Origin: a virus
IMG/VR virus record: IMGVR_UViG_3300032770_000003
Location: 107,495-171,494 of that record
Strand: one strand, 5' to 3'
Length of the DNA: 64,000 bases
The notes below the pieces were generated by a model. That model saw only the letters and a list, made by a program, of their open reading frames with translations. It did no database searches and was not told where the DNA came from. A program made the position numbers and the translations under genes. This document shows positions 4,717 to 56,732 of the stretch, piece by piece; the first letter of the stretch is position 1; the number at the start of each line of letters is the position of its first letter.

Positions 4717-6200
4717 CGACGTCCTGCCCAATCCGCCTCGTAGGCCGCCTGTTCCTGGGGTGTGGCGAAGCCAGGTGCCACCTCCGGTTCTGTGACCTTC
4801 GCTCCCCGCTTCTGCTTGATGACCCTGCCCTCTGCATCGAACTTCTGCTTACCGATGAACTTTTGCTTCGTCTTCGGTTGCCAGTCGTCCGACACGAAAC
4901 CTCTGTTTTCTACTATCGTTCGAACGTACTCATCGAAGACGCCGACGTGTGTCCCCACCTGCTCGCGACTGAACGGCACACCCTTCGTCAGGTATTTCTT
5001 GACCGCGTCCTGTACAGCGCTCCTGATGTTTTCAGTCCAGCGCTGCTCACGCTCAACCCGATCAGCCTCACGTCGACGAACCTGCTCAGGAAGGGGGCTG
5101 CCGTCGGACAACCAAGACGTGGTCGTACCGATCTGCTCTGCCCAATGGGCAAACTGGGCACTGAGATCGAACTTGTCGAGCACGCGATTGGCGATGGCAC
5201 CCCAGCGCTGATCATCCGCCGGCAGCTGTGCTTTCTGCTTTATCTCCAGCGCACGCGCAGCGATGTGATCTTGGAACTCTTGATTCGAGATCGTCTTGTC
5301 ATCATCGAGCCCATCTGCGTATGCGATGAGGTTGGCGAATCGTTCCACATACTGTTTGTATGAAACAGGCTGACCGCTCGGAACAGCCCACTCGTAGTTA
5401 CCGAACGGGTCCTCCACCCGCTCGAAGATCGGTTCGGTTGTTCCTGTCACAGGAAGCCCTAGAAGGTTCTCAGACACGTCACGAACACAGTGTTGCGCCA
5501 GTAGCTCTGTCGTGGCCTCCTCTAGCGCAGCATTCGGACGGTAGGCTGCGTTCCTCTCACCCTCCTCACCGATCAGCGTTCCTTCGTATTGGAAGATGTT
5601 GGAGGCATGGTGCATGGACTCGTGAACGACCACTCTGACGCCATCCATAGTCCAGTCCCTGACTTTCTTCTCCGTGACGGCTTTGTAGACGTCTATGGCC
5701 ACACTCGGAGTGATCTGAATCAGACCAATGCTTCGGTTGTACTCCCCAGCTGCCCAGTTCATCTTGGGGTTCACATCGAAGAACTTCAGAGCGTCAGGAT
5801 CATTGGTTGCTTCTGGTCCCTTCAGCTTCCTAGCGATCTCTTTAGCTAGTGTTCGGAACTTGTCCTTGATGACAGGTGTGACCGCTTCTACGGCTTTCTT
5901 GGCATTCGCGCCGAACTCATCATACGAGCCAATGACACCGTAGTTCAGGTCGTCGTATTTGGGCAAGTCAACGGAACTCAGATTCAGGCTCGCTGACCCT
6001 TTGAACGATGGAACCGGAGTTGGCTTCTCTGCCAACACCGTCTTCGGATCTCTGTCAGTCGCAGGCCGATCAGCTGTAGAGCGAACCCAGCGCTTAGACT
6101 GATAGGTAGTCCCGTCCTTACGGTGAACCTCGACGTCACGAAGGACGAGACCTCCCGCCTTCATGAAGTCGAACAAGCCGAGAACCGGCTCGGTAACCAC
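4713..6200 (-). CDS. Putative zinc metallopeptidase (virion-associated)
   Basis: 495 residues. 'VRVVVHESMHHASNIF' has the HExxH zinc motif, and 'NAALEEATTELLAQH' downstream supplies a plausible third ligand (Glu), as in gluzincins. The N-terminus begins 'LGLFDFMKAGG', then 'DVEVHRKDGTTYQSKRWV', the tag-like pattern repeated in other large proteins here. The C-terminal 120 residues are charged and helical. Peptidase activity is inferred from the motif spacing. Such domains are known in polyvalent proteins injected with phage DNA. Confidence 0.55.
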   Translation of the reverse strand: MVTEPVLGLFDFMKAGGLVLRDVEVHRKDGTTYQSKRWVRSTADRPATDRDPKTVLAEKPTPVPSFKGSASLNLSSVDLPKYDDLNYGVIGSYDEFGANAKKAVEAVTPVIKDKFRTLAKEIARKLKGPEATNDPDALKFFDVNPKMNWAAGEYNRSIGLIQITPSVAIDVYKAVTEKKVRDWTMDGVRVVVHESMHHASNIFQYEGTLIGEEGERNAAYRPNAALEEATTELLAQHCVRDVSENLLGLPVTGTTEPIFERVEDPFGNYEWAVPSGQPVSYKQYVERFANLIAYADGLDDDKTISNQEFQDHIAARALEIKQKAQLPADDQRWGAIANRVLDKFDLSAQFAHWAEQIGTTTSWLSDGSPLPEQVRRREADRVEREQRWTENIRSAVQDAVKKYLTKGVPFSREQVGTHVGVFDEYVRTIVENRGFVSDDWQPKTKQKFIGKQKFDAEGRVIKQKRGAKVTEPEVAPGFATPQEQAAYEADWAGRR

Positions 6201-17320: not shown

Positions 17321-18037
17321 TCAAGCCTCCGCACACAACACGGACTGACGTGTGGTTTTTGTCAATCTCGTAATGTTGACTGAGCCGTCCGACTCCCTTG
17401 ATTGCACAGTTGCTAAAGCAACTTTCTTCATTACAGAACTGAGTCTGACACCACAAGCACGTGCCCACTGCTCTGGAGATTTGGCTGCCTTAGTACTGTT
17501 GCAGGGCTTGCACGCCGGAGCCAAGTTGTGTCGAGCGTGAAGTCCGCCCTTTACCAGAGGTACGATATGGTCAAGTGTCGTGGCGGCTCGTTTGCGGCAC
17601 CAAGCGCATTTGCCATCGAACGTACGAAAAAGGACGCGCAAGAATTCCAGACTAACAATCTCAACAGTGGCTGAGTGTATTCGTGCGCGACGACGATGCC
17701 AGCGCAACAAGGCACCAATTTTGCCCACAGGGCTGTAGTAATAGGCGCGGTTCTGTTTGAGTATCGCAGCCCTGTGCTTTGTATATCGAGAAGCGTGATA
17801 GGCCGCTATCTTTGTCTTGTTCGCCTGTCGGTAGGCGATGTCCTTTTCTCTGTTGTTACTGCGGTAACGTAATTCGATTTCACGAACCTTGGCGTAGTTG
17901 GTCTTGCGATAGACCTTGGCACGAAGGCGATGACACACACGACACCAACCTCCGTATCCATTCGGACAATTCTTATTCCTGACGAACGCACTGAGTGGAA
18001 GTGTGTGTCGACATTTGATACAAATGCGCGTGATCAT
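17321..18037 (-). CDS. HNH endonuclease, free-standing
   Basis: 238 residues. The N-terminus has 'CIKCRHTLPLSAF' and 'WCRVCHRLRAK' zinc pairs, then a basic linker. The HNH core follows: 'CAWCRKRAATTLDHIVPL' and 'NLAPACKPCNSTKAAK' (H-N-N residues with CxxC pairs). ATG overlaps the portal stop (ATGA). Insertion directly behind the portal, which itself holds an intein, fits a mobile gene. Confidence 0.88.
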   Translation of the reverse strand: MITRICIKCRHTLPLSAFVRNKNCPNGYGGWCRVCHRLRAKVYRKTNYAKVREIELRYRSNNREKDIAYRQANKTKIAAYHASRYTKHRAAILKQNRAYYYSPVGKIGALLRWHRRRARIHSATVEIVSLEFLRVLFRTFDGKCAWCRKRAATTLDHIVPLVKGGLHARHNLAPACKPCNSTKAAKSPEQWARACGVRLSSVMKKVALATVQSRESDGSVNITRLTKTTRQSVLCAEA

Positions 18038-21018
18038 TGTTTCATACCAGGGCCGCTTGCGGCCGCTTCATTATCTTGCCCGAAGTTGTCACTGTACTTC
18101 GGCCCAGCGGGTTTTCCTTCACCACCAGGACTACCACCGGGTTTACCTCCAGCTCCGGCGCCTCCTTGAGCCAATCCCTGCGCCTGAAGTGCGCTAATGT
18201 ATACCGGATTGAGGGGGACATCTCCACCTGGAAGTGGTGGCAGTGAAACCGTCTGTCTTCCTTCATTCAAACTCATGTAGCTGCTGATCTGCTCGACCAG
18301 CATCTCGTGTTTCTCGTTCTCGGACAGCTCATCGAGTCCGACGAACTCAAAGGTGAAGTGATCGTCGATCTTGTCGATGACGTGCTTGTTGATCAGCTTC
18401 GCGATGAACCGCAGAATTGGCTTGAGACCGCGGTCGCGCGAGGCTTTGAGCTTCCACTCCTGCGATGCCTCGAACAGCGGAGTCTGTTGCTGGCCTCCGT
18501 GGATCTCGAAGTTGATCTCAGCCGGATCGATCAGATACACGCCACAGGTGATCTTGATCAGATACTCAATCCACTTGCCGAACTCCATCTCCTGATTGGT
18601 CTTGGCGAGGTCAACCCACTCCAATCCTTCTGACTGGAGGATAGGAGTCTTCCAGCTGTTCTCGACGCCCGAGACCTGTGCGAGCCACTGCCGGCGGAAC
18701 CCTTCCAGCTGCTCAGGGGTGTAGTTGTCGCCCTTGAGGTTGAGGATGCCTTTGGGGGCAGTACCCTGAGAGAAGAACTTCCGGTTGTACTCCTCTGCGT
18801 AGAGGTGAGCGGTCACAATCGTGATGAGCTGCTCCAGCTCACCAAAGCCGTAACCCTGAATGTAGATGTCCGTGCGCGGGTTGCGAACCCCGAAGGACAG
18901 CTCGCTCGACGAGTAGACGTTCTCGATCTGGCCGTTGATGACCTGGACGTAGGCGATAGGACGGTTGCCGGAAAGCGGCTGTCCGTACTCACGCCCTTCG
19001 TAGAGGTTGGCGAAGCGACCCGGGACCGTGGGCTTGAAGCCCATGCGATCGTGGTACGACGTGTTCACGCCGACATAGCGATCGTCTGCTGCGATCCGGA
19101 TCGTGGCTGCATCGACCGCCCAAAACTCGTAGGGGAGGCCCATACCGTCGGGCACCACCTCGAAGCAGCAGTTGTGACTGGCGAAGCCTTCCGCTATGTA
19201 ACTATGATCCTCGTCAATCTCCAAGTTGAACACTGGGTAGTTCTCTACCCGCTCGCGAGTCACTTGTTCGATCTTGATGTAGAGGAATTCATCATCCTGA
19301 ATGAATGCACTACGCTGTTGCGTAGGAACAGGAATGTTCAGCAGGCGTCCATCGGACAGCGTCTGAAGACCTGTCCCACTGATGCGACCAACATACTTTT
19401 CTGAGTGATTGCGGCTATACGCCTCGTGCACGATCACCTGAGCCGGCACCACAGAACAACGGGTGTACATTCCCGCAGCTGCGAGCAATACCCGAAGTCC
19501 ACCAAAGAGCGCACGAGAGACTGTAGAAAAAGTCATAGAGGAGTTCGCTACGCTCCCATCACAGGCAAGGTAGCCGCGAAGGAAAGCCGCACGCACTTCG
19601 TCACTGGCTTCGAACATCCAAGATGGAACCCTCTTGTTGTGTGCACCATCACCGAAGTTCTCAGCCATGAAGCGGGCTAGCTCCACTGAGTTGCCAGTCA
19701 CTCCTGTGGCTGCACAGTCATCGTAACCAACGTCAGTCGTGCCAATTCCCAGGGAATCGAACACCTGGACGGCATGTATCAGCAGATGTTCATCATCTTT
19801 GTGGAAGGTCAAACCAACCGCGTTTGGTTCCTTGCGGGAGTTCTTTCCTGTGTGTCCGTTTGCTGTATAGAAGCCGCAAAAGGTCGCGAACTTCTCATCG
19901 AGGGTGACAGTATTAGGACGCGGAAGTGGTGAACGTGAAAAGCCGCGTTTCTCTGCTTCGTCCTTGACGAGCTGAATTGCTGGTCCGCCCCTGCGATAAT
20001 AGCCGCATAGAATTGCCCGCACAGTAACGACGTTGATGCCAGTCGCATCCGCAATCTCTCGATAAGGAATATTCGGGTACTGTCGAGCTTTGGTCTTGTC
20101 GAAGATCTGAAATTGAATCGGCTCAGTACGAATCGTAAGTTTGGGCTTTGGATAGACGAGATAGTGTTCGTCAGTCAGCTCCGAAGCTGGTGTCCAATCA
20201 GGCTTGATTCCCTTGCCGCGTGATGATGTCAGCCTGAACCATCGATCTGTAACTGCCAAGAACGGATGCTCGGAGGTGGCCCCGACTGACTGTCCACCAG
20301 ACCGGATCGTAATCAAATCACCCGTATACAAGCGGCGCATGCGCTCGACCACACGCCGAATGCGTCCGGTGTGGGTCCGGACTTCGGTTCCTACTTCGAT
20401 GGTCTCGATGGACTGAGGCACACCATCCGCGCACTCAATCTGCGTTGACGCAGGATGACACTGATCCAGAACCAAGCTGTCGCGGACGATCTTGCGCAGA
20501 AAGTTTTCGAAGTCGTCTCGATCGACACGCGCGTAGGGGTTGCGCTCAGCCCGACCACAGCGAAGGACGAAATCCTCCAGCTCCTTGATGAACTCCACCT
20601 CCGCCGGTGTCATCCGGTGGTCGGGGTCCTTGTGCCGAATCGCAAAGCCCAGCGAGCGCGTCCAGCGGTAGGGCTGCGCGAACGATGCCACCTGGGCCGC
20701 GCGAGTGTTGATGATCGCGTTTATGATCCCAAGCTGGGTGGCGATGCGCTTCAGGGTTTCGTAGGTCAGCGAGAAGCGACGATCCTTGTACCCCAGCGCG
20801 TACTGCAGACTGAGAGGATCGTGCATCCAGCTCTTCGGTGAGCGCTGGGGATCGGTGTTCGGGATCTGCTTCCAGGCTTTGCGCAGCTCTTGCGCGACGA
20901 TGACCGGAATGTGTTGCGTGGCCACCTGGGCAGCCGCCACCGTCTTGATGATCGACTCCATGTTGAGCCCGAGAGGGCCTGACATGGATGCACCTTTGTC
21001 CTTGCGCCGACGACTCAT
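18034..21018 (-). CDS. Phage portal protein with a LAGLIDADG intein
   Basis: 994 residues as translated. Exteins 1-186 and 617-994 together make a portal of about 564 residues. Portal-like landmarks are 'LGIINAIINTRAAQVASF', 'YGFGELEQLITIVTAHLYAE', 'FFSQGTAPKGILNLKG' and the late 'WVDLAKTNQEMEFGKWIEY'. The C-terminus is Gly/Pro-rich and probably disordered. The portal forms the dodecameric vertex ring for DNA packaging. Splicing is required for function, as the intein interrupts the 'SLVLDQ|CCFEVV' core strand. Translation starts at ATG 21018, just after the preceding stop. Confidence 0.88.
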   Translation of the reverse strand: MSRRRKDKGASMSGPLGLNMESIIKTVAAAQVATQHIPVIVAQELRKAWKQIPNTDPQRSPKSWMHDPLSLQYALGYKDRRFSLTYETLKRIATQLGIINAIINTRAAQVASFAQPYRWTRSLGFAIRHKDPDHRMTPAEVEFIKELEDFVLRCGRAERNPYARVDRDDFENFLRKIVRDSLVLDQCHPASTQIECADGVPQSIETIEVGTEVRTHTGRIRRVVERMRRLYTGDLITIRSGGQSVGATSEHPFLAVTDRWFRLTSSRGKGIKPDWTPASELTDEHYLVYPKPKLTIRTEPIQFQIFDKTKARQYPNIPYREIADATGINVVTVRAILCGYYRRGGPAIQLVKDEAEKRGFSRSPLPRPNTVTLDEKFATFCGFYTANGHTGKNSRKEPNAVGLTFHKDDEHLLIHAVQVFDSLGIGTTDVGYDDCAATGVTGNSVELARFMAENFGDGAHNKRVPSWMFEASDEVRAAFLRGYLACDGSVANSSMTFSTVSRALFGGLRVLLAAAGMYTRCSVVPAQVIVHEAYSRNHSEKYVGRISGTGLQTLSDGRLLNIPVPTQQRSAFIQDDEFLYIKIEQVTRERVENYPVFNLEIDEDHSYIAEGFASHNCCFEVVPDGMGLPYEFWAVDAATIRIAADDRYVGVNTSYHDRMGFKPTVPGRFANLYEGREYGQPLSGNRPIAYVQVINGQIENVYSSSELSFGVRNPRTDIYIQGYGFGELEQLITIVTAHLYAEEYNRKFFSQGTAPKGILNLKGDNYTPEQLEGFRRQWLAQVSGVENSWKTPILQSEGLEWVDLAKTNQEMEFGKWIEYLIKITCGVYLIDPAEINFEIHGGQQQTPLFEASQEWKLKASRDRGLKPILRFIAKLINKHVIDKIDDHFTFEFVGLDELSENEKHEMLVEQISSYMSLNEGRQTVSLPPLPGGDVPLNPVYISALQAQGLAQGGAGAGGKPGGSPGGEGKPAGPKYSDNFGQDNEAAASGPGMKQ
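19171..20460 (-). mobile_element. Intein with LAGLIDADG endonuclease in the portal
   Basis: 430 residues from Cys187 (CHPASTQIECADG) to Asn616 (ASHN), followed by +1 Cys. Block B is 'GATSEHPFLAV'. Two DOD motifs, 'FCGFYTANGHTG' and 'FLRGYLACDGSV', flank the homing domain, and the C-terminal block is 'VFNLEIDEDHSYIAEGFASH'. The first DOD acidic residue looks replaced by Asn, so cleavage may be weak. All splice residues (Cys1, His-Asn, +1 Cys) are present, so splicing should be active. Confidence 0.9.
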
Positions 21019-24581: not shown

Positions 24582-24597
24582 CCCTGACTCGTCAGGG
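24582..24597. terminator. Hairpin overlapping the CobS-like stop codon
   Basis: CCCTGAC-TC-GTCAGGG, 7-bp stem with a 2-nt spacer. It lies at the stop of the AAA+ gene, is not followed by a U-run, and may attenuate or stabilise the mRNA end. Confidence 0.3.
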
Positions 24598-25683
24598 AGT
24601 CGGGGCGAACGCTCGCTGGACCACCCCCTCCACCACGGTGGCATCCGCCGGGGGCATCTGATTCAGGAAGCAGTATTTTGCCGCGATGAGAGGATTGCCC
24701 AGACTGACGAGGGTGTTGGCCCAGTTGATCAGGTCGCGGTGAGAGAGCGGCGGCACCGAGATCTCGCCGTTCTGATACGCCTTCCGGATCTTGCCCGCGG
24801 CCTTGACCAGGTAGCTGATGGCCAGCGGTTCGATCTTGCCCTCGAATCGGCGGCGCAGCATTTTGATCTCCTTCGCCTCGTCCAGGTATCCCAGGCTGAT
24901 GGTGAGGCTGAAGCGTTTGAGCTGAGCGTAGTTTTGCACCTTGGTGCCGGCGTAGTGCCCACTCTCGTCACCCAGGCCACGCGTGTTGGCGGTGGCGAAG
25001 TACGTGTTGTCAGGGTGGAGGGGAACCAGCGTTCCGCCGGTTTCGAGCACCAGGAGCTGCCCCTGGTTCTGATCGAGGGGCCGCTGGAACACGAAGGCCG
25101 TGTCGTTGGTCATCGCATCCCACTCGTCGAGCAGGATGATGGTTCCCGGCATGCGGTGCGCTCGCGCGAGCATCCCCCAGGAGAAGTCCATCTCCTTGCC
25201 CTTGACGATCCACTCGCCCACCAGATCGGGGCGCGTGATCCCGCCGTCGAGGCTGATCAGGACGACCTGATAGTTCAGCCGCGCGGCGATCTGCTGAATG
25301 AGCGTCGTCTTGCCGACGCCGCTGTGGCCGTGCACCAGCACCCGCTGCCGGGTGGCGAGCCCCATCAGCGCGATCTTGGTGTCTTCCTCCGGGAACTCGT
25401 AGCCCGGATCGATCTCCGGCACCCACGGCGTGCGATCGGCGTAGCCCATGATCTTGGGCGAGCGCCTGACCGGCTTGCCGTTCGCGTCCTTCTGTATGTT
25501 GCCAGACGCGTCACGTACGAAGTAGTTCAAGCCGAACGTCTCCGAGACGTCGTACTCCTTCTTGACGCGCTCCGGATACTCCGGTGGTACCAGCGGCTGA
25601 AGTGGTGCCGTCCCCACCTGAACCTGCTGTTGACTGACCGGGCGGCGACGTAGCGGTGCAGCAGCAACCTCTTCTTGAGCCAT
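24592..25683 (-). CDS. CobS/MoxR-type AAA+ ATPase
   Basis: 363 residues from ATG 25683. Walker A 'GHSGVGKTTLIQQIAARLN', then 'LDGGITRPDLVGEWIV', Walker B 'IILLDEWDAM', sensor 1 'TYFATANTRGLGDESGHYAG' and 'RFSLTISLGYL'. This series closely follows CobS, the ATPase partner of the cobaltochelatase-type CobT. A CobT-like VWA protein is encoded at 29906-32014, so the two probably form a MoxR-VWA-type remodelling pair. No other cobalamin genes are nearby. The start-associated element lies 24 nt upstream. Confidence 0.85.
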   Translation of the reverse strand: MAQEEVAAAPLRRRPVSQQQVQVGTAPLQPLVPPEYPERVKKEYDVSETFGLNYFVRDASGNIQKDANGKPVRRSPKIMGYADRTPWVPEIDPGYEFPEEDTKIALMGLATRQRVLVHGHSGVGKTTLIQQIAARLNYQVVLISLDGGITRPDLVGEWIVKGKEMDFSWGMLARAHRMPGTIILLDEWDAMTNDTAFVFQRPLDQNQGQLLVLETGGTLVPLHPDNTYFATANTRGLGDESGHYAGTKVQNYAQLKRFSLTISLGYLDEAKEIKMLRRRFEGKIEPLAISYLVKAAGKIRKAYQNGEISVPPLSHRDLINWANTLVSLGNPLIAAKYCFLNQMPPADATVVEGVVQRAFAPTP

Positions 25684-25707
25684 GACTTCAGTTCCCCTTT
25701 CGACGGG

Positions 25708-25727
25708 AGGTCGATCCGCACAGAAGT
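25708..25727 (-). promoter_or_regulatory. Start-associated element
   Basis: Leftward ACTTCTGTGCGGATCGACCT, exact consensus, 24 nt before the CobS-like gene and directly abutting the primase stop codon. Confidence 0.85.
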
Positions 25728-26834
25728 TCAGATCAGCAGCGACAACCGCCACTGCACGTATGCGCTGCTCCGTGCATCTATCCGATCGCGTAGTCGCTCA
25801 GCCAACCACAACACCACACTCGTGTTGACGAGCGCGTCCCCCGCGTCGACCTTGACACTGTGTGTCTCATCAATTAAGTTGACAATTGAAATACGAGTCT
25901 CAGGAAATGCTGACTTGATCCGCTCCACTGAGCGCACCGATTCCCGCGTGGCATCCGCATCCCAGCAAAAGATGATCTCCCCAGGTCGCAGCTCCCTGAG
26001 CAGCTCGACTTGAGCTTCCGAGATCGACTTGCCGAAAGTGCAGAGAGCCGGGGTGCCGTAGCGGAGAAACCCCAACGCATCGAATACGCCCTCCACCAGG
26101 ACGACAGCACCGCCAGATCGGTAGCGTTCAAAGAAGCACGGTTCCAGTGGCCACAGCCAATCGTGAACGTTGGCGCTGGACAGATACTTGATCTCTTTAC
26201 CAGCTATGCGCCGGCCTTGCCAAGCAACATCTCGCTGACCCACCCGAATCGGAAAGACCAGCCACGGCCCCCTGACCTCGTTCACCTTGCCCGTGACCGG
26301 ATTGACCTTCCGAGCTGGCAGACGGAGAGCCGCTCCCAAGCGGAGAGCCCGGATCTCCGCATCTCTCAGTCCCCGTACTTGAGTCGCGTACTGGTAGACC
26401 TCCTGGCTCGTGAGGCCGGTGAAGGTTGCTGCGCCCGGCACCACCACCGCCTCAGGGGAGTAGATCCTGGTCTCGGACACCGGCTCAGCGAAGAGCGTAG
26501 CCAGCGTCTGCACCAGACCCGGATCACCAGAGATAGCCGGTAGGACGGTACTGAGTAGCTCGATCCGGATCGCGGTCTCGTGGCGATCCGAAACCGCAGC
26601 CATCAGCTCCGCTAGGTCAGGCGCCCAGCCGTCGGCGCGCTTGCGGCCCCAGTCGCACTTGTAGCAAATCCAACGCTTCTTCTCGACGTTGACGTAGAGC
26701 TTCCAGTCGTCAGCTCCGCACTTCGGGCAGACCTCGATTCGACGCTCGTCACCGCCACCATCCTTGAGCTGGACGTACTGCTCAAGCCACGCCTCAAGAT
26801 CGAGATCGTCGATCGCCTCCCGCAGAGTGGTCAC
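25728..26834 (-). CDS. DNA primase (zinc finger plus TOPRIM)
   Basis: 368 residues. N-terminal zinc-binding 'CPKCGADDWKLYVNVEKKRW' continues to 'ICYKCDW'. The TOPRIM core has 'VVLVEGVFDALGF' (catalytic Glu) and 'IIFCWDADATRES' (DxD). No helicase domain is present, so it resembles a stand-alone DnaG/T7-type primase that makes RNA primers at the fork. GTG start at 26834 directly follows the WGR gene stop. Confidence 0.85.
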   Translation of the reverse strand: MTTLREAIDDLDLEAWLEQYVQLKDGGGDERRIEVCPKCGADDWKLYVNVEKKRWICYKCDWGRKRADGWAPDLAELMAAVSDRHETAIRIELLSTVLPAISGDPGLVQTLATLFAEPVSETRIYSPEAVVVPGAATFTGLTSQEVYQYATQVRGLRDAEIRALRLGAALRLPARKVNPVTGKVNEVRGPWLVFPIRVGQRDVAWQGRRIAGKEIKYLSSANVHDWLWPLEPCFFERYRSGGAVVLVEGVFDALGFLRYGTPALCTFGKSISEAQVELLRELRPGEIIFCWDADATRESVRSVERIKSAFPETRISIVNLIDETHSVKVDAGDALVNTSVVLWLAERLRDRIDARSSAYVQWRLSLLI

Positions 26835-29905: not shown

Positions 29906-32014
29906 CTACCCTTTCTTGTGCCTGAGGCACTGGTCTATCTGATTCAGACCTTGACGAGGTAATTCGTCAAGCTTTTTCACTACCACAGTGTTCGAATATA
30001 TGCCAGTGACTGCGTCGGTCTCGATTCCGATCACTACGAGTTCAACGAGCTTTTCTACCGCCCTGGCACAATCCGTAGCGTAGTTGACATGCGCTGCGTG
30101 GTCCTCATCAAACCTCGGGAATCTCTGTCGACTATCGTCCACATCCCACACGGGCGCAACCGGCACCGGCTCCCCGTCGTTGAAGACGAAGAGGAGCTTG
30201 CGTTTCTCAGGCCGAGAGAGGAGCATCCGAGCGCCAAGCTTGACGGTCTCCCCATCGTAGGTGTTCGCCTTGAGGTTCTTAGGCATCTGCAGGAAGCGCG
30301 GCCCGGCCGCATACCAGGAATCGCCGAAGGACTTGTACTCCCCCAGCCAGAGATCCCCCCAGCGCTGATAGGTGGCCTGGACCTCGGGAGTCGTCGGCAG
30401 CTTGCGCCGGAACGCCACTTCGGGCTGAGAGGTTGACCAGCCGTAGCACGCGAAGGGAATCTTGAGCTGGTTGAACAGCTCGCCGAAGATGACGGCCGTC
30501 TGTGCGGCCAACAGGATCTTGCTCCCGTCCATCGACCCGGAGTGATCCACCAGCAGCAGTGCACAGGTATCGAACGCCTCGCCTGCGACCTGTGACCGAA
30601 ACACGTCCTTGCCGGTGCCGTTCACGACCTTGTACAGTCGCCGGCCGTTGAGCTTCCCGCGGAACTTGCCTTCCTCCCAGCGGCTCTGGGTGCGCGCCAT
30701 GAGCGCCCGCGTGAGCTTGAGCTTCATCGGGGCGACCATCGCGTTCGCCTGGTTCATGAAGCGGACGAACTCCGTGCGATCGCCCTCCTTGATCTTCTCG
30801 ATGGTGTCACCCTCCGTCGTGAAGATCTGGTAAGCGTGGCTACCCTTGCGCGCCTCTTCGACCGCTTTCTGGAGCAGCTCACCACGATCCGGAGCTTGTT
30901 TTTGCTCCGCACGCACCTCTTCCTCAGAGGGATCGAAGTTTGGTGCTGGCGCTGGGGCGGGGGCCTGTGACGGGGGCGCCTGCTCTTCTTCCTGGGACTC
31001 TTCCTCGCCACCACTTCCCTCTTTCGCGCCTTCGTCTTCCTCGCCCTGCTCGGATCCTGTGGCCGCACCCGCGGGCGGAGAGTCGTCTTCCGACTCATCC
31101 TCCTGTTCCGCGTCCCCCCCGTCGGCCTCTCCATCACCCTGTTCAGAGTCGTCCTCTGATCCCTGCGGCGGGGCCGTCTCCGTCTCTTCCGTCTCCTCAG
31201 GATCAGAATCCTCAGACTGCGACTGTTGCGGTTGGGGCTGCGGTTGCTCCGGCTGCTCCGGCTGCTCGAACATCGCCTGTTCTTGCGGCGACGGGGGCGG
31301 CGGGGGCGGCTGGTTCGACTGCTGTTGCCGTGGCTGCTGCTGCGGCTGTTGCGGCTGTTGCTGAGGGGGCGGCGGCGGGGGCGGGGGTGGCGTCGTGTCC
31401 TTCAGCCGTTCGAGAAGGATCTCAGCAAGCTCCCGCACCTCACGGGTGCTCCGAGCTTCGAACCGCGCTCGGCGGAAGAGGTCTTCTCCGTCCCGCTGAA
31501 AGCGCGCGAGGATCTCAGGCTCGACCACCGTCTGCAGAAACCAGTGATCGTAGTTGAATCCCGTGGTCGCGTACGCGAGCCCGGTGTAGAGGAATTTCCC
31601 GAGTGCCGTGCGTGTCGCCCAGGCTTGCGCCGGATTCGCCGCGACCTTGCGCAGATCCCACTCTGCGGCAAAATCGAAGTTGGATTGCGCTCCGGGGTAG
31701 ATGTCGATCCACCTCTGCTCGATCCGCGGATCCTCCAGCGCGTTCAGCGCGAGGAAGAGCTTGGGCTTGCGCGCCAGCTCCTCCAGCATGTCGAAGTCGC
31801 TGTGGACGCAATGAGACGCTTCGTGGTCCAGGTAACCCTGTGTCGCGCGCAGCAGCTCGTCGCTGGCATCGTCCGGGAGCAGCGGCAGATAGATCGTCTT
31901 GCCGTTGGTGCGAGGTTGTGCGTGCGTGAAGATGACCTTGAGCTTCCACTGCTCCACCAGGATGCGCGCCAGGCGTTCCAGCGATGACTCGACGATTCGA
32001 AGCTGCTGCGTCAT
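29906..32014 (-). CDS. CobT-like VWA-domain protein
   Basis: 702 residues from ATG 32014. The N-terminal 190 residues include a zincin-like 'YLDHEASHCVHSDFDML'. The middle is a long Pro/Gln run, then acidic Glu/Asp/Ser and Ala/Pro tracts. The C-terminal VWA domain has MIDAS 'LLLVDHSGSMDGSKI', preceded by 'GKFRGKLNGRRLYKVVNGTG', as in CobT. With the CobS-like ATPase at 24592 it forms a probable AAA+/VWA pair. Phages do carry such CobST-like pairs; the physiological target is unknown. Confidence 0.8.
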   Translation of the reverse strand: MTQQLRIVESSLERLARILVEQWKLKVIFTHAQPRTNGKTIYLPLLPDDASDELLRATQGYLDHEASHCVHSDFDMLEELARKPKLFLALNALEDPRIEQRWIDIYPGAQSNFDFAAEWDLRKVAANPAQAWATRTALGKFLYTGLAYATTGFNYDHWFLQTVVEPEILARFQRDGEDLFRRARFEARSTREVRELAEILLERLKDTTPPPPPPPPPQQQPQQPQQQPRQQQSNQPPPPPPSPQEQAMFEQPEQPEQPQPQPQQSQSEDSDPEETEETETAPPQGSEDDSEQGDGEADGGDAEQEDESEDDSPPAGAATGSEQGEEDEGAKEGSGGEEESQEEEQAPPSQAPAPAPAPNFDPSEEEVRAEQKQAPDRGELLQKAVEEARKGSHAYQIFTTEGDTIEKIKEGDRTEFVRFMNQANAMVAPMKLKLTRALMARTQSRWEEGKFRGKLNGRRLYKVVNGTGKDVFRSQVAGEAFDTCALLLVDHSGSMDGSKILLAAQTAVIFGELFNQLKIPFACYGWSTSQPEVAFRRKLPTTPEVQATYQRWGDLWLGEYKSFGDSWYAAGPRFLQMPKNLKANTYDGETVKLGARMLLSRPEKRKLLFVFNDGEPVPVAPVWDVDDSRQRFPRFDEDHAAHVNYATDCARAVEKLVELVVIGIETDAVTGIYSNTVVVKKLDELPRQGLNQIDQCLRHKKG

Positions 32015-32029
32015 TGTCCCCTCGACAGG

Positions 32030-32049
32030 AGGTCGATCCGCACAGAAGT
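32030..32049 (-). promoter_or_regulatory. Start-associated element
   Basis: Exact leftward consensus copy, 15 nt before the CobT-like ATG. Its first base overlaps the stop of the preceding gene (TGACTTCTG). Confidence 0.85.
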
Positions 32050-32870
32050 CAAAATCGCCAGTGCGCGCGTATAGCCTTGGCCAGCTCGTGAGCTGCAAGC
32101 GAAGTGCGCACTGTGACACGGTAACTACAGGTCGCGTACTTCGACGCCACCTTCGCCGGTGTCGGAGTTGGAGGTTCGAGCTGGTGCAGATCCGCCTGCA
32201 TGTAGCGAAACGTACCGAGTGCCGCTGAGATCTCAGTCAGCCGGTCTATCAGCTCGGGTACGATGCCAACGAAAGCGTATTTACCGGTGTCAAGCCAGAA
32301 TCGAACGATCACGAGTCCGTCACGCATCACACTGCAGTAGCTCGCAGTCAGAGCGAGCTGATACTGCCCGCGGTGCGCATACTGCGTTGCAAAATCACGC
32401 GCCGACCACATCAGCGGCAGGACGGGCAGCTCCCCTAGCGTCCGCCGGAATTCAGCCAGGAACGAGTCGACGGCGCGACCCATAGGCACATACTCGCGCC
32501 TCGCGTATTTATCGGTACCGGCCCAGCGGCTCTTTTTGGTGGCGGGCTTCTTTCCGTGCTTCGCGGGCGGGGACGATGGACGCGGCGGGGGCGGCAGCGG
32601 ATCTTGTTTCAAGGGGACTACGAGCTGGGGACCGCTGGCCACAGCTACCGCCTCAGTGCGAAGCTTCCAGGCGCGTTCGCAGAAGCGCGCGAGACCACAG
32701 CTCGGTGCTTCGCCACAGGGCCCTTCGCCTTCGACCACGAAGAGACCAAAGCAATCAGTCTGATCAACCGTCGCCGTCTCCTCAGGACGCATCGAGCGCT
32801 TGATTAGCTTGACCACCGGGACTAGCCACGGGTCACGGGCCCATTCAACCTGCGGAAGCTCGTTGGACAT
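32049..32870 (-). CDS. Hypothetical protein, 273 aa
   Basis: The N-terminal half has Cys residues ('CFGLFVVEGEGPCGEAPSCG') that could bind zinc. A Pro/Lys-rich linker follows, then a folded C-terminal half ('SVMRDGLVIVRFWLDTGKY'). No family recognised. Preceded by GAGAGGT and by a good promoter-like sequence with a TTGAC palindrome at 32899. First gene of a transcription unit leading into the CobT-like gene. Confidence 0.6.
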   Translation of the reverse strand: MSNELPQVEWARDPWLVPVVKLIKRSMRPEETATVDQTDCFGLFVVEGEGPCGEAPSCGLARFCERAWKLRTEAVAVASGPQLVVPLKQDPLPPPPRPSSPPAKHGKKPATKKSRWAGTDKYARREYVPMGRAVDSFLAEFRRTLGELPVLPLMWSARDFATQYAHRGQYQLALTASYCSVMRDGLVIVRFWLDTGKYAFVGIVPELIDRLTEISAALGTFRYMQADLHQLEPPTPTPAKVASKYATCSYRVTVRTSLAAHELAKAIRAHWRF

Positions 32871-33491: not shown

Positions 33492-33522
33492 TAGATTTGG
33501 GTTCGGCCTTGACATGTCAAGG
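33492..33522 (-). promoter_or_regulatory. Promoter with operator palindrome
   Basis: Leftward TTGACA, 17 nt, AATCTA. The -35 lies in the palindrome CCTTGACATGTCAAGG (33507-33522). The gene start with a strong Shine-Dalgarno follows at 33472. Confidence 0.65.
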
Positions 33523-33527
33523 CTTGG

Positions 33528-33650
33528 GGTGTTTAGATGAAGCACAGCGGCTAGGCAAGGCTCGGCCTGGATCGTTTCGGCTAGGTCAGGCTTGACTGGG
33601 TTCGGCAGGCATGGAAGCCGGGGTGGGGAGATGTGTCATCCACTCCCGGC
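33528..33650. repeat. Short G-rich tract with 5-nt periodicity
   Basis: GG dinucleotides recur every five bases ('ggctaggcaaggctcggcc', then 'cggctaggtcaggct'). The same texture, on a smaller scale, as the arrays at 53.45 and 55.0 kb. No convincing gene; a 17-codon leftward frame (33588-33641) follows the element at 33665. Confidence 0.5.
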
Positions 33651-33660
33651 TCTCTTCGCC

Positions 33661-33709
33661 CGAAAGGTCGATCCGCACAGATGTCTTTTGTGCGGATCGA
33701 CCTTTCGGC
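33661..33709. promoter_or_regulatory. Back-to-back pair of start-associated elements forming a perfect inverted repeat
   Basis: Leftward copy 33665-33684 (one mismatch, ATCTGT) and rightward copy 33685-33703 share 19 bp of perfect complementarity around a 9-nt centre. The rightward copy is 20 nt before ATG 33724, the only rightward gene nearby, which shows that the element's orientation follows that of the gene. As RNA this would form a strong hairpin. Confidence 0.75.
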
Positions 33710-33723
33710 GAAAGGACCGACCA

Positions 33724-51804: not shown

Positions 51805-53415
51805 ATGACGATCAAGACGCGTCGTGTCTCAGCGGCAGCGGCCGCAGTCGCTCTGCTGTTTGTCGTGAGCGTCGCACTCCGACACAAGCCTGCGAAGCAC
51901 CACCTTCCGACGCCGCAAGCGAGACGACTCCAGCTCGCGGCAGCTTCTTCGACGATTTGCACGATCGCGCAAGAAGGGAACCAGGCTTCGATCAAGTGCC
52001 CCGCTGGCGAAGTGTTCAGCAGCGTCTTCTTCGCGAGCTTCGGGAACGCTACGGGCACCTGCTCGACGTACAAGCTCGGCACGTGCAACGCGACCACGTC
52101 AGTCGCTGTGGTCTCGCTGGCGTGTCTCGGAAAAGCTTCCTGCAAGGTCAACGCTTCGAGCGCCACGTTCGGCGGCGATCCTTGCGCGGGGACTGTCAAG
52201 CATCTCAGTCTGAGACTTGTCTGCTCACCGCCACCCCCACCACCTTGCCCCGCTGACGGCGGCGCGGGAAGTGGTGGCTCAGGTGGTAGTGGTGGCAGCG
52301 GGGGAGCTGGTGGCGTAGGCGGCTCTGGTGGCACCGCTGGCTCTGGCGGCGTAGGTGGCTCTGGAGGCTCAGGCGGTAGTGGTGGAGTCGGAGGTACTGG
52401 AGGCTCAGGCGGATCCGGAGGCTCTGGTGGATCGGGTGGATCGGGTGGATCGGGTGGATCGGGTGGATCGGGTGGAAGTGGTGGTTCAGGCGGCACGGGA
52501 GGAACAGGCGGCAGTGGCGGAACCGCAGTCCTCAAGGTCGGCAACCACGCGCTCATCGATACCTGTGGCAACACCTTCGTTCCGAAAGGAATCGAAGCGA
52601 CGATGGGCTTGGGCTTGGAATACAACGGCACGCTCGCGAACGTGGTCGATCAGATCGCACTAACCAACGCGAACGCGATTCGTCTGCTGCCCAACATCTC
52701 ACAGCTGCAACCGAGTGACGTGCAGCCGATCATTGCACGGGCCATCAGCCATGGACTCGTGACCTATATCTCGCCTGGTGATCGAACCTGGTTTGGTCAG
52801 GCGGCGGTGCACACGATGCTGACCCCGTACCTGCCCTACCTCGTGATCGACGCCTACCAGGAGGCCGAGTTCGACGATCCCGTGCGCTGGCTCTCCGAAG
52901 CTCAGGCGGCCGTCGTCCAGGTTCGCGGCTACGGTTACAGCGTTCCGCTGGTCGTGATCAGCAATCAGTACGGTCGTGACCTGCCCACGCTGCTAGCTCA
53001 CGGTGCCGACGTCGAAGCCGCGGACCCGATCCACAACACCATTCTCGGCTGGCAAGCCTACTGGGGCTCGAACGCCTCCAATCCCTGGACCTACCAACAG
53101 CAATACAACCTGACGTGGGAGCAAGCCGTCGCACAGGCGGCAGCGGCCCCGTTCACCGTCCAGCTCGGACTCGACTACGTGACCGACTTCCCCGATTGGT
53201 TTATGGACTATGGTCACGTCATGGATCTTACCAAACCGGTAGGACTGGGTTGGCTTTGGTGGGATTATTATCTACCATTTGGCGACACTACGAATGATCT
53301 GACAAGTGACAATTCATTTGCTCACTTGTCGACACTTGGCCAATCCGTCGTTGTCACTCAACCCTCTGGATTCAGCTCGCCCAACCCGAAGGCGTGCAAG
53401 CCGCCTGGTTTCTAA
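51805..53415 (+). CDS. Secreted SUEL-type lectin fused to a glycoside hydrolase-like domain
   Basis: 536 residues. N-terminal signal anchor ('AAAAAVALLFVVSVAL'). Galactose-binding SUEL-type lectin at ~50-135 ('IKCPAGEVFSSVFFASFGNA', six Cys). Then about 105 residues of Gly-Ser repeats (GGSGGSGG). The C-terminal domain begins 'LIDTCGNTFVPKGIEATMGL' and looks like a GH5-type TIM barrel ('ANAIRLLPNISQL', 'HGLVTYISPGD'). The catalytic Glu pair is not certain. Exported protein that may bind and cleave surface polysaccharide; a cargo or host-derived gene. Confidence 0.65.
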   Translation: MTIKTRRVSAAAAAVALLFVVSVALRHKPAKHHLPTPQARRLQLAAASSTICTIAQEGNQASIKCPAGEVFSSVFFASFGNATGTCSTYKLGTCNATTSVAVVSLACLGKASCKVNASSATFGGDPCAGTVKHLSLRLVCSPPPPPPCPADGGAGSGGSGGSGGSGGAGGVGGSGGTAGSGGVGGSGGSGGSGGVGGTGGSGGSGGSGGSGGSGGSGGSGGSGGSGGSGGTGGTGGSGGTAVLKVGNHALIDTCGNTFVPKGIEATMGLGLEYNGTLANVVDQIALTNANAIRLLPNISQLQPSDVQPIIARAISHGLVTYISPGDRTWFGQAAVHTMLTPYLPYLVIDAYQEAEFDDPVRWLSEAQAAVVQVRGYGYSVPLVVISNQYGRDLPTLLAHGADVEAADPIHNTILGWQAYWGSNASNPWTYQQQYNLTWEQAVAQAAAAPFTVQLGLDYVTDFPDWFMDYGHVMDLTKPVGLGWLWWDYYLPFGDTTNDLTSDNSFAHLSTLGQSVVVTQPSGFSSPNPKACKPPGF

Positions 53416-53438
53416 ACCGCTGACCTGTTTTTCAGCCA

Positions 53439-53452
53439 CTTGACCCGTCAAG
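53439..53452 (+). promoter_or_regulatory. Operator palindrome / promoter before array 1
   Basis: CTTGACCCGTCAAG. Rightward TTGACC followed at 17 nt by GTAGGG. It would transcribe the G-rich array as RNA. Confidence 0.5.
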
Positions 53453-53454
53453 CG

Positions 53455-54195
53455 CGGGTGTTGTAGGGTTGCCCCCGTTGGCACGGTCGGGTCAGGTGCG
53501 TTATGGCATGGTGAGGCAGGATGGGTTGGGCGAGTCTGGGCTTGGGTTGGCCCGGCTTGGCGGGGCAGGAAGGGCTCGGCGAGGCTTGGCAAGGCATGGC
53601 TAGGAAGGGACAGGCAAGGCAGGAATGGTGCGTAGGGGATAGGCACGGCTGGGATCGGATGGGATCGGAACGGCAGTCGAGGAAAGGTGTGGTCACGCCC
53701 GGTAAGTCGAGTCGTGGCAGGGCAGTCGAGTCGAGGAACGGAAAGGAAAGGGTGGAAGGCAGTGGTAGGGCAGGATCGGTCAGGACCGGCAAGGCGGTGT
53801 TGGAATCGGAATGGTCCGGCAGCTTAGGTGAGGAGTGGTGAGGCACGGTTTGGTTTGGAATGGAGCGGCAGTCTCGCAGAGGTGAGGTATGGCAAGGCAT
53901 GGAGTGCACGGCTAGGAAAGGCAGTCACGGACAATGGCGCGCCAGGGTTTGGGGGGTTGGGTATGGAATGGAAAGGCACGGCAGTAGAGGACCGGAAGGG
54001 CCGGGTCAGGATGGGATTCGCAGGGCAGGGGCGTGGCAGGTCGGGCCAGGTATGGTGCGTTTTGGCTGGGCGAGGAACGGTTGGGTTTGGCAGTCGAGGT
54101 TAGGAAGCGAAGCGAAGGTCAGGGTGTGGCTCGGCAGTCCTGGTCGGGAATGGGTCGGCAAGGAAGTAAACGGCATGGCAGTCGCGGCAGCCAAA
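53455..54195 (+). repeat. G-rich array 1, 5-nt periodic (NNGGN)
   Basis: GG recurs at five-base spacing over some 740 bp (for example 'tcggcgaggcttggcaaggc', 'gggatcggatgggatcgga'). About every 37-60 nt a GGCAGTC motif interrupts the phase, at 53672, 53721, 53758 (variant), 53818 (variant), 53867, 53920, 53980 (variant), 54089, 54133 and 54177. A 5-nt period cannot be a codon frame, and ORFs here on both strands are compositional artefacts. The + strand RNA could form two-layer G-quadruplexes. No gene is seen. Confidence 0.7.
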
Positions 54196-54257
54196 TCGTA
54201 GGCAACCAACGTGACTGTGCAACTTGAGAACTGACACTTTGTGAAAGGGGACTTGGA

Positions 54258-54992
54258 ATGCGAAATGGAACGACAACAGCACCGCTGCCTTCGGCATTGA
54301 CCAAGCGGCGAGGTCGACCACCCAAAGCGCGACCGTGGGAGGACGATACCGGCGAAGTGCCGCCGACCAAGATCGACATCAAGGAAAAGATCGCCAAGCC
54401 GACCAAGGAAAAGACGGCGGCGATTTTCATCCCCAAGATTGCCGTCAACCACACCACGATCAAGGTGATCGGCATCTCCAGTCTGATCGTGCATGCGTGG
54501 AGCGAGAAGGCCAAAAAGGAAATGCGCGACAAGCAGACTGGCGTCGCCACGCAAAAGCGTGAGTTCAAGGTCCCCATGGACGACTTCAACGGCGCTCGCT
54601 ACCTCAATGCTGAGGGTAAGGATTGTGTTCCTGCGCTCGCCTTCCGCAACGCCGCGGTTGAGGCGGGTGTGCTCGCCGGCGTCTTCAAGACGACGTTGCG
54701 CAAAGCATTCTTCATCACCGGCCCTGACCTGATTCCGATCATCAGCGATCCTCCCATCATGAGAGAGGACATGGTGCGTGTCGGTCAGGGTACCGCCGAT
54801 CTCAGGTATCGGCCCGAATACAAGAACTGGAGCTGCGTCGTCCCTGTCGAGTTCAACCCCAAAGTGCTGAGCCTCGAACAGCTCGTCAACCTATTCGACA
54901 ACGCGGGTTACGCGATTGGCATTTGCGAGTGGCGGCCCCAGCGCGATGGTCAATTCGGACGCTTCCGCGTGGCCATCGATAGCACCAAGTAA
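54258..54992 (+). CDS. Conserved phage protein flanked by the G-rich arrays, 244 aa
   Basis: AT-hook-like N-terminus 'KRRGRPPKARPWEDD'. The conserved body has 'GISSLIVHAWSEKAKKEM', 'ALAFRNAAVEAGVLAGV', 'IMREDMVRVGQGTADLRYRP' and 'GYAIGICEWRPQRDGQFGRF'. I recognise this pattern as a widespread phage protein annotated only as hypothetical; it may work on nucleic acid. GAAAGGGG Shine-Dalgarno. Its location between two 0.8-kb arrays suggests it acts on them or on their RNA. Confidence 0.65.
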   Translation: MRNGTTTAPLPSALTKRRGRPPKARPWEDDTGEVPPTKIDIKEKIAKPTKEKTAAIFIPKIAVNHTTIKVIGISSLIVHAWSEKAKKEMRDKQTGVATQKREFKVPMDDFNGARYLNAEGKDCVPALAFRNAAVEAGVLAGVFKTTLRKAFFITGPDLIPIISDPPIMREDMVRVGQGTADLRYRPEYKNWSCVVPVEFNPKVLSLEQLVNLFDNAGYAIGICEWRPQRDGQFGRFRVAIDSTK

Positions 54993-54995
54993 GGG

Positions 54996-55760
54996 GGCAA
55001 GGCAGGGATCGGGCGGAAGGGCTAGGTTGGCTAGGCTTGGCAGTCATGGGCCGGGTGTGTTCCGGAACGGAAGGGGTCGGCGCGGAATGGCACGGCAGTC
55101 AGCGCAGGGCTTGGTTCGGCTTGGCCAGGTTGGTTCCGGTTCGGAGCGGCTAGGCAAGGCAGTCGAGGCCGGGGAGTGGGCTAGTCTGGGCGAGTCAGGG
55201 TAGGGTCGGCCAGGGACTGGATTGGCAGTCGAGGTTAGGAGTGGAATGGACGGGTAAGTCACGGCTTGGCAGGAACGGCGAGGCCCGGCGCGGCCCGGAC
55301 CGGTAGGGCCCGGCACGGTATGGTCCGGTACGGACTGGCAGGGCAGGAATGACTAGGCTAGTTACGGCACGGCACGGATCGGCACCGCTGGGCAGTCGGA
55401 GGCTGGGAAAGGCGCGTTTTGGACCCGTGGGGCTGGGTGTGTTTGGGCATGGATTGGAACGGAACGGAGCGGCATGGCAGTCAAGGCAAGGTGTTGCGGG
55501 GCAACGCGAGGAATGGTGTGGCAGTCGGGGCGGGGCGAGCTTTGCGTGGATGGGCGGGGAATGGCAGTCGTGGTGAGGTTGGGAAGCGAGAGGAGAGGAA
55601 AGGCATGGCGGGGCAGTCGGGGCCGGGCAATGTGAGGTCGGGCAGGGTGCGAGCGGGCGCGGCTGGTAAGGTGCGGGGCAGGGAATGTTTCGGCAGTGTT
55701 GGGCAAGGTGGGCAGCGCATGGCAGTTGTGGCGAGGTCCGGCGTGGGATCGCTGGGCCGG
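54996..55760 (+). repeat. G-rich array 2, 5-nt periodic
   Basis: Same NNGGN texture as array 1 ('aggcccggcgcggcccgga'), with GGCAGTC phase-shifters at 55039, 55094, 55158, 55224, 55391, 55476, 55520, 55563 and 55612, and GGCAGT variants at 55692 and 55721. No credible ORF. Ends about 50 nt before the next gene. Confidence 0.7.
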
Positions 55761-55812
55761 TTCGGTGTGGCAGGCTTGGTTTTGAACTTCCACAAAAAGG
55801 GAGACTTGAGGC

Positions 55813-56364
55813 ATGGCAATCGCAGAGATCGATCCCACAAGCATTCGAGCGCGACCTGGTTCTCGGCTCACGAACAAACAAGCGTTGGCGATCGCACCGA
55901 CGCTGTTTGCGATTGAACAGCGGGACGGGTTGGTCAAGCCCGAAGCTGTGCTGGAGGCTGCCCAGCAGAATCCGGGATCAGAGCTGCACTCACTGTTCCC
56001 CTGGAGCGATGCGGATGCGGCCCGCGCTCACCGACTCAACATCGCTCGTTCGATCATCCGCAGTGTGACGTACAAGGTGATCCGCTACGGCAACGGATCA
56101 CTCAATGACTACGTACCGTGTTTCGTGCGCATACGGGAGGACGGCGAACCCCAGCTCGACGGCAGCACAACACTCCCGCAAACCGGCTACGCATCCGTCA
56201 CCCGGGTGCTCGACAATGAGCACCTCCGTTCGCAGATCATCGCGGCCGCGGTACGCGAGCTGAACCAGGTTGTGCGCAAGCTCGAAACCTTGAAGGGGCT
56301 CGAACGGGCACTGACAAACGCGAAAGAGCTGCTCGAACAGCTCAAGAAAGCCAGCGCAGCTTGA
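55813..56364 (+). CDS. Hypothetical protein, 183 aa
   Basis: Helical protein: 'LTNKQALAIAPTLFAIEQRD', 'LNIARSIIRSVTYKVIRYGN' and a C-terminal coiled coil 'LNQVVRKLETLKGLERALTN'. AAGGGAGACTTGAGGC precedes ATG. It shares the leader 'GGGACTTGG/GGAGACTTGAGG' with 54258, so the two probably belong together functionally. Confidence 0.6.
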   Translation: MAIAEIDPTSIRARPGSRLTNKQALAIAPTLFAIEQRDGLVKPEAVLEAAQQNPGSELHSLFPWSDADAARAHRLNIARSIIRSVTYKVIRYGNGSLNDYVPCFVRIREDGEPQLDGSTTLPQTGYASVTRVLDNEHLRSQIIAAAVRELNQVVRKLETLKGLERALTNAKELLEQLKKASAA

Positions 56365-56732
56365 GGTGTGTTGGTTGTGACGAGGACAAAGAAACGAGTA
56401 GCTACGCGTATGCCGGAACTGCTGTCGATCTTTGCACAGAATGCCGAACGTGCATTGTGTGCAAGAAGGCTGTGGAACCTAGCCACGGAGCCCATCGCAT
56501 GGGCTTTCTACCGGCTATCCACGGTGGCGAATGCCTGCGCGCAGCCGCGCGACGTGGAGTGGTCGCGGTCGGTGACGATCTGACCTCTGAGGGGAACGGT
56601 TGGGCCCCGCAAGGTAGGGGTTGGAGCGGCATGGCAGGCAGGTTAAAGGCATGTCCTGGTACAGCTGCTGGCGGTTTCGCCGGTGGAACAGGAAGCCTAT
56701 GTTCCACACGCCCCGCCAGAACGTCGACGTGA
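56361..56732 (+). CDS. Zinc-binding protein, 123 aa (C-terminus doubtful)
   Basis: TTG start overlaps the preceding TGA. 'MRCVGCDEDKETSSY', 'LCTECRTCIVCKKA' and 'HGGECLRAAAR' form Cys pairs. From residue ~75 the sequence runs through a short G-rich pentamer tract (56590-56650), so the tail may be an artefact of that tract. Confidence 0.5.
   Translation: MRCVGCDEDKETSSYAYAGTAVDLCTECRTCIVCKKAVEPSHGAHRMGFLPAIHGGECLRAAARRGVVAVGDDLTSEGNGWAPQGRGWSGMAGRLKACPGTAAGGFAGGTGSLCSTRPARTST

Follow-up and report, generated by a model that had tools for sequence, protein, structure and literature searches.

What could be served by DNA in which GG recurs at every fifth base of two long stretches while the bases in between vary? 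This question is raised by a viral DNA stretch of 64,000 nucleotides, hereafter the window, which takes up positions 107495-171494 of a virus record of 171,494 bases and carries two such arrays on either side of one gene (Table 1). With genes for head proteins, a portal protein and a DNA primase in the window, the record is that of a phage, in agreement with the phage or provirus setting of the system considered here; a search of the record for the terminase family PF03237 gave no match. We conclude, with a probability of about 94%, that window positions 53439-56364 are a phage-encoded VIPR locus, in which guide-RNA arrays are combined with a Vipr RAMP protein in the order vrRNA array 1, vipr, vrRNA array 2 and candidate vap. 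This kind of locus has been in print since 2026 and is hence not new.

VIPR (Viral Interference Programmable Repeat) was described in a 2026 preprint as a phage-borne relative of CRISPR (PMC13142463), which was the only relevant source that our literature search on VIPR found; a listing of the literature on pentanucleotide arrays in phages contained nothing related. According to the preprint, Vipr is an ancestral RAMP whose gene is flanked by vrRNAs of 9-16 YNNGG repeats, and double-stranded DNA is recognized through the NN pairs, one base being skipped for each pair; for the VIPR of phage SUSP1, RNA binding, the 1-nt skip and repression of transcription by the complex were reported (PMC13142463). 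The repeat consensus is GGY/NN, with "a related consensus" allowed, seven types with differing arrays and vap genes are named, and satellites and prophages make up most of the natural targets that are predicted (PMC13142463).

Table 1. Features of the VIPR locus and of the solitary unit, in window positions.
Feature	Position	Strand	Remarks
Second operator copy (putative), CTTGACATGTCAAG	33508..33521		exact; 41 bp before the solitary unit
Solitary vrRNA-like unit	33549..33607	+	11 pentamers (9 with GG), then GGCA
Two hairpins after the solitary unit	33616..33712	+	RNA fold z -9.5 against shuffles
Palindromic operator (putative), CTTGACCCGTCAAG	53439..53452		exact; 42 bp before array 1
vrRNA array 1	53481..54205	+	GGHNN pentamers interrupted by GGCA tetramers; lag-5 z 11.8; 13 GGCA steps
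vipr, RAMP-fold protein, 244 aa, phrog_4652	54258..54992	+	family profile matches SUSP1 Vipr; predicted Csm3/Cas7-like fold
vrRNA array 2	54996..55780	+	between vipr and vap candidate; lag-5 z 10.5; 10 GGCA steps
Candidate vap (VIPR accessory protein), 183 aa, phrog_15946	55813..56364	+	role inferred

The rhythm lies far above what dinucleotide composition provides. Array 1 holds 92 pairs of GG at a distance of five bases, against a mean of 32.4 (s.d. 5.0, maximum 46) in 300 dinucleotide shuffles of the stretch, and array 2 holds 98 against 39.7 (s.d. 5.5, maximum 58); the gene between them, with 3 against 2.9, is without the rhythm. The initial annotation, which had reported the 5-nt period and proposed weighing it against composition, is thus borne out, as is its statement that the primary sequence does not repeat, because Tandem Repeats Finder has no entry for either array and the rhythm is therefore not a sequence repeat. 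It had also noted a strand asymmetry: runs of at least six GG at 5-nt steps are confined, in the window, to the two arrays, with none on the minus strand, and the pattern (GGNNN)x4+GG occurs 52 times on the forward strand and never on the reverse strand of the whole 171,494-base record, its only positions outside the main arrays being window 33549 and 56613. GG is present in about 220-240 of the 279 array pentamers and absent from some, whereas the other bases vary freely. The earlier view that selection acts on spacing is right; an RNA is most likely the product, as had been supposed. Open reading frames cross the arrays, but codons are not compatible with a period of 5 nt interrupted by 4-nt steps, and the coding reading was rejected. 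The Rfam 15 covariance models at gathering score had no match within the window, a tRNA search found nothing, and the array DNA gave no similarity match to known phages.

The gene between the arrays connects them to the published system. A profile of 80 sequences of its family matches the solved structure 36pp_D, "SUSP1 Vipr protein", at E = 7.7e-38, with the next matches at E of about 1, and the window protein alone finds 36pp_D at E = 1.5e-6. When its AlphaFold2 model (pLDDT 88.7) was submitted to Foldseek, each of the best 50 matches listed was either Cmr6 or a chain from a type III or type VII complex, with E down to 1.2e-5, and alignment with VIA-align against RAMPs gave Z of up to 11.7 (r.m.s.d. 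3.4, 151 aligned). By its predicted fold, the window Vipr is a Csm3/Cas7-like RAMP. The family shares a conserved C-terminal stretch, GxGDxRPxxxxxxGRF, which may correspond to the glycine-rich loop of RAMPs. Pfam had no meaningful match for the family and PADLOC made no cas call on it, giving single weak matches to Cmr6/Csm3; nine neighbouring proteins had no cas match in Pfam. The initial annotation had named the protein encoded at 54258 as a binding partner to be assayed, a good choice, since a RAMP-fold Vipr homologue would be the natural partner of a guide RNA.

Class 1 CRISPR RAMPs (Csm3, Cmr6 and type VII Cas7), which pack along the guide RNA with a periodic footprint, share their fold with the predicted Vipr. 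In contrast to class 1 CRISPR, no repeat-spacer array was found in the window locus, and its guide information would reside in NN pairs rather than in contiguous spacers; neither the direct repeats with spacers nor the cas operon that define CRISPR-Cas class 1 were found in the region.

If arrays of this kind belong with Vipr, the two should occur together wherever the arrays are sought without regard to genes. IMG/VR was scanned with (GGNNN)x10+GG, blind to genes, which gave at least 120 stretches; most of the 120 listed are non-repeating arrays of up to about 1.6 kb. An all-against-all comparison of their open reading frames yielded one dominant cluster of 63 loci, which includes both of the window proteins that flank the arrays. 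With iterated profiles, a Vipr homologue was recognized in 82 of the 120 listed stretches (84 at another threshold), always on the array strand, within 150 bp of the array in 67 cases and within 1 kb in all, and 75 viral control loci, fetched for decoded-guide patterns, contained neither Vipr nor the family of the 55813 protein, the vap candidate. The initial annotation had held that its reading would fall if related phages kept the flanking genes but had no arrays; what the gene-blind scan found instead is this frequent company of array and flanking-gene homologue. Among 119 bacterial stretches matching (GGNNN)x12+GG, 7 remained after poly-G and simple repeats had been filtered out, and a single one of the 119 has a Vipr match; it belongs to these 7 and is a Fibrobacteres MAG contig of 7060 bases (L243) with a genuine-looking GGNNN array. 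About 27 of the listed viral stretches, some of them cut at contig ends, are without a recognized Vipr or vap (L030, L036, L040, L042, L046-L049, L059, L065, L070, L074, L076, L080 and about a dozen more), and some of these may hold more distant Vipr types. Stretches of poly-G or tandem repeats (L027, L064, L067, L071, L083, L113, L132, L138 and L139) were left out only of this list of unexplained loci; the count of 82 spans all 120.

How a continuous array could be divided into guides is suggested by the second element of the pattern. The initial annotation had described punctuation by GGCAGTC roughly every 50 nt; the heptamer does recur, 16 times in the arrays (7 + 9), but at intervals of 43-169 nt, so that the stated spacing is only approximate. 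The recurring element proper is the tetramer GGCA, at which the 5-nt frame is displaced; one segmentation of the arrays has 23 such tetramers, with GTC next in 10 of them and GGA in 5, and the former is the source of the heptamer noticed first. Across 22 loci that carry the vap candidate family, the window included, 65 of 69 four-base steps between clean pentamers are GGCA, and short GGCA spacings are mostly 34, 39, 44, 49, 54, 59, 64, 69, 74 or 79, i.e. whole pentamers plus one tetramer. In 61 loci without that family, GGCA makes up 18 of 23 tetramer steps but is far rarer per locus. Clean units between GGCA steps comprise about 8-14 pentamers, the segmentation leaving longer blocks as well, and no conserved tail was seen between the units of the main arrays. 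From this spacing we infer that GGCA is a guide border in continuous arrays. A search with GGCAGTC and five subsequent pentamers returned 107 loci, 66 of them with a dense local array, and in these 66 the Vipr family was found 37 times and the vap candidate family 39 times, on the same strand; the GGCA variant is thus shared and not private to this phage.

On these grounds we propose that the arrays would be transcribed from the operators as vrRNA guides, and that the vrRNAs would be cut or ended at the GGCA tetramers, the borders between successive guides. Vipr would coat each guide with one subunit per pentamer, holding GGH and exposing the variable NN; the exposed pairs would bind double-stranded DNA with one base skipped between pairs, according to the published rule, and the complex would then block transcription of a gene of a competing element. 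GGA pentamers would be used as guide repeats too.

The closest described system is that of the Escherichia phage SUSP1 (type II in PMC13142463), which likewise is phage-encoded and has a RAMP-fold Vipr, a small second gene and flanking pentamers. The window locus differs from it in having GGH where SUSP1 has GGY and in its continuous GGCA-cut arrays without a tail, the SUSP1 vrRNAs being tailed. Its second gene is unrelated to Vap1, to which a profile search of the vap candidate found no relation, and its Vipr stands outside the SUSP1 side of the tree; the 3' tail and the Vap1 gene that mark type II are both lacking here. Fold comparison of the vap candidate gave rows that include winged-helix proteins, the best Z of 5.6 being within the usual background. 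Its family occurs in 22 of the 120 listed array stretches, always on the array strand and within 1 kb. In a Vipr tree of 86 rows, from which rows of less than 150 aa are omitted, all 27 rows labelled with this family fall inside a 34-row group (support 95/55), nested in a starred 39-row branch (98/89) that excludes SUSP1 Vipr; the closest starred partners of the window Vipr are L018 and L111, in each of which the sequence breaks off near the gene. The clade probably corresponds to a VIPR type already in print, and we hence do not call it new.

Relatives with the same gene pair in the same order, vap after vipr, exist in the mycobacteriophage LastJedi, the Gordonia phages UmaThurman and Ecliptus and the cyanophage Cy-LDV1, where both are annotated as hypothetical proteins and Vipr is 31-37% identical. 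Arrays of GGCA-cut pentamers are visible in Cy-LDV1 and Ecliptus. In these four phages the arrays are shorter or elsewhere, and LastJedi has hardly any distance between vipr and vap.

Upstream of array 1 lies a palindrome that the initial annotation had called an operator/promoter. The palindrome is exact and may be an operator, but a sigma-70 scan of 53300-56500 found no consensus promoter. The exact sequence, CTTGACNNGTCAAG, has only 4 copies in the 171,494-base record, and similar palindromes with 0-1 mismatch stand at window 24202, 32899, 32949, 33508, 34935 and 53439; they resemble operator sites of a single phage repressor. Since one copy precedes array 1 and another precedes a solitary pentamer unit 20 kb from the main locus (lag-5 z 4.1), the two may share an operator, and the solitary unit would add one guide behind the same operator sequence. 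The two hairpins that follow it are a possible tail or terminator, as judged from the predicted fold. A further short in-register run of GG, ending in GGCA, is seen at 56594-56640, downstream of the vap candidate, where an open reading frame that has CxxC motifs contains it; it could be another vrRNA or a coincidence of coding.

Four guides were decoded with the published 1-nt skip, and IMG/VR was searched with an 8-pentamer core of each, the remaining pentamers being scored as an extension. For the units at 55272 (25 core matches, best extension 6/12), 55098 (11, best 5/8) and 53568 (9, best 3/4), nothing rose, in our judgement, above chance. The solitary guide gave 30 core matches, two of which have an extension of 6/6 and the next 4/6; these two agree with the decoded guide in 22 of 22 bases and lie in two near-identical phage contigs, L475 (a 155,979-base record) and L447 (86,428 bases), for which reason the match is counted once. 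Read on the opposite strand, the site comprises codons 50-60 (EHNWYDDSDFY) of the gene for a 220-aa protein, and the skips fall on the wobble positions of these codons. When 49 ten-pentamer guide windows were compared with the two matched records, only those from the solitary unit exceeded 17/20. A site in L455 that agrees with the solitary guide in 20/22 was set aside, as it is not in the wobble frame.

The matched gene (L475 5308-5970, minus strand) belongs to an unnamed phage protein family, of which there are 24 named phage records, including Caulobacter, Streptomyces, Rhodococcus and Burkholderia phages; in the 8 of these 24 that were compared, the solitary guide fits best at the conserved motif, with 16-18/22. 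Within its own record the guide has no match within 3 mismatches, and a search of that record for a relative of the matched protein, run without a positive control, was empty. In a wider comparison, guides from the 82 Vipr-bearing sources were set against all fetched loci with skips of 0-3, and no signal appeared under any rule; the sole weak pair was L126 to L093, 17/18 under skip 1.

The match of the solitary guide is a good candidate for a natural target and not a proof, and the alternative is that it arose by chance, the real target being elsewhere. Four guides were tried, and we put the chance of a 6/6 extension at roughly 0.003-0.016 in the case of this guide and at 0.01-0.06 when all four are considered, before the frame coincidence is taken into account; the 30 core matches, about a dozen distinct sequences, average about 2/6 extension bases. 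The matched phage, moreover, shows no meaningful relationship to that part of the source phage which the window covers, apart from one 25-residue match at E 0.001, and no Vipr or vap candidate family match. Against chance stand the position of the skipped bases at codon wobble sites and the continuation of the match by one more upstream in-register pentamer (24/24, noticed afterwards) up to the GGCA, where it ends. We therefore hold a chance match to be unlikely.

Somewhat less probable, in our opinion, is that the locus is of the VIPR kind but decayed or no longer used for targeting, with its arrays drifting under weak constraint. Such drift would account for the pentamers with A at position 3, which make up 34% in the window (n=98), a share exceeded only by L120 (41%, n=22) among the 78 loci with at least 12 unambiguous pentamers, 37 of which have no A there at all. 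Pentamers without GG and the lack of an IMG/VR target for three of the four guides point the same way. GGA pentamers, however, are also found in L365, L302, L354 and L324, and the array of L365 is dominated by A at this base (50 of 68 clean pentamers), i.e. GGA/NN and not GGY/NN; moreover, most window pentamers have kept GG, the GGCA borders persist, and the reading frames of vipr and the vap candidate are intact.

The initial annotation had itself favoured an RNA prone to R-loops and quadruplexes or one that sequesters proteins, the GG spacing serving folding or titration, and had likened the texture to immunoglobulin switch regions. An array transcript would indeed be G-rich, strand-specific and non-coding with many GG sites, but quadruplexes need no strict 5-nt step, the arrays travel with a RAMP gene and fit a described class of guides whose known repeat, GGY/NN, has this very period, and neither the GGCA borders nor the full decoded match would be explained. 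We consider such a function very improbable, and the likeness to switch regions finds no support, as the period belongs to that guide-RNA class. That the arrays are functionless decayed tandem repeats or an assembly artefact, as their likeness to pentanucleotide microsatellites might suggest, is hardly credible, since no tandem repeat was found, GG is kept while the other bases vary, and the linkage of the same texture to the same gene already refutes it.

Taken as a VIPR locus, the window offers more than one further example. The system was reached here from raw sequence independently of its discoverers, the array pattern first and the gene second, and the arrays alone suffice to find VIPR loci in viral metagenomes. 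What is added is an independent test of the linkage, a GGCA rule for cutting continuous arrays, a candidate distant vrRNA gene and one natural guide-target match, and the published code can now be tested in a second, tail-less lineage. It is possible to go further and join these elements: a tail-less VIPR clade with GGCA-separated guides and A, C or T after GG, and with a vrRNA acting in trans behind the same operator and aimed, by the wobble skip, at a conserved coding motif of unrelated phages. We regard this combined reading as evenly poised; if it is true, VIPR would be a phage-wide regulon and not a single locus.

Other features of the window were seen in passing. An intein that contains a LAGLIDADG domain splits the portal protein (18034-21018, minus strand). 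The gene at 51805-53415 on the plus strand, immediately before array 1, encodes a secreted-looking protein of 536 aa in which a SUEL-type lectin domain is accompanied by a long linker rich in Gly and Ser. On the minus strand, 29906-32119 encodes a CobT-like VWA protein and 24592-25752 a CobS-like AAA ATPase, the latter with a match to a PHROG named for porphyrin biosynthesis. The reverse strand of L127, one of the surveyed loci, carries at about 3187-4770 an array of 1.6 kb whose pentamer blocks are separated several times by a conserved linker, GGGAGCAGCAGCATCC...GGGATGGAC, a layout that represents another array architecture.
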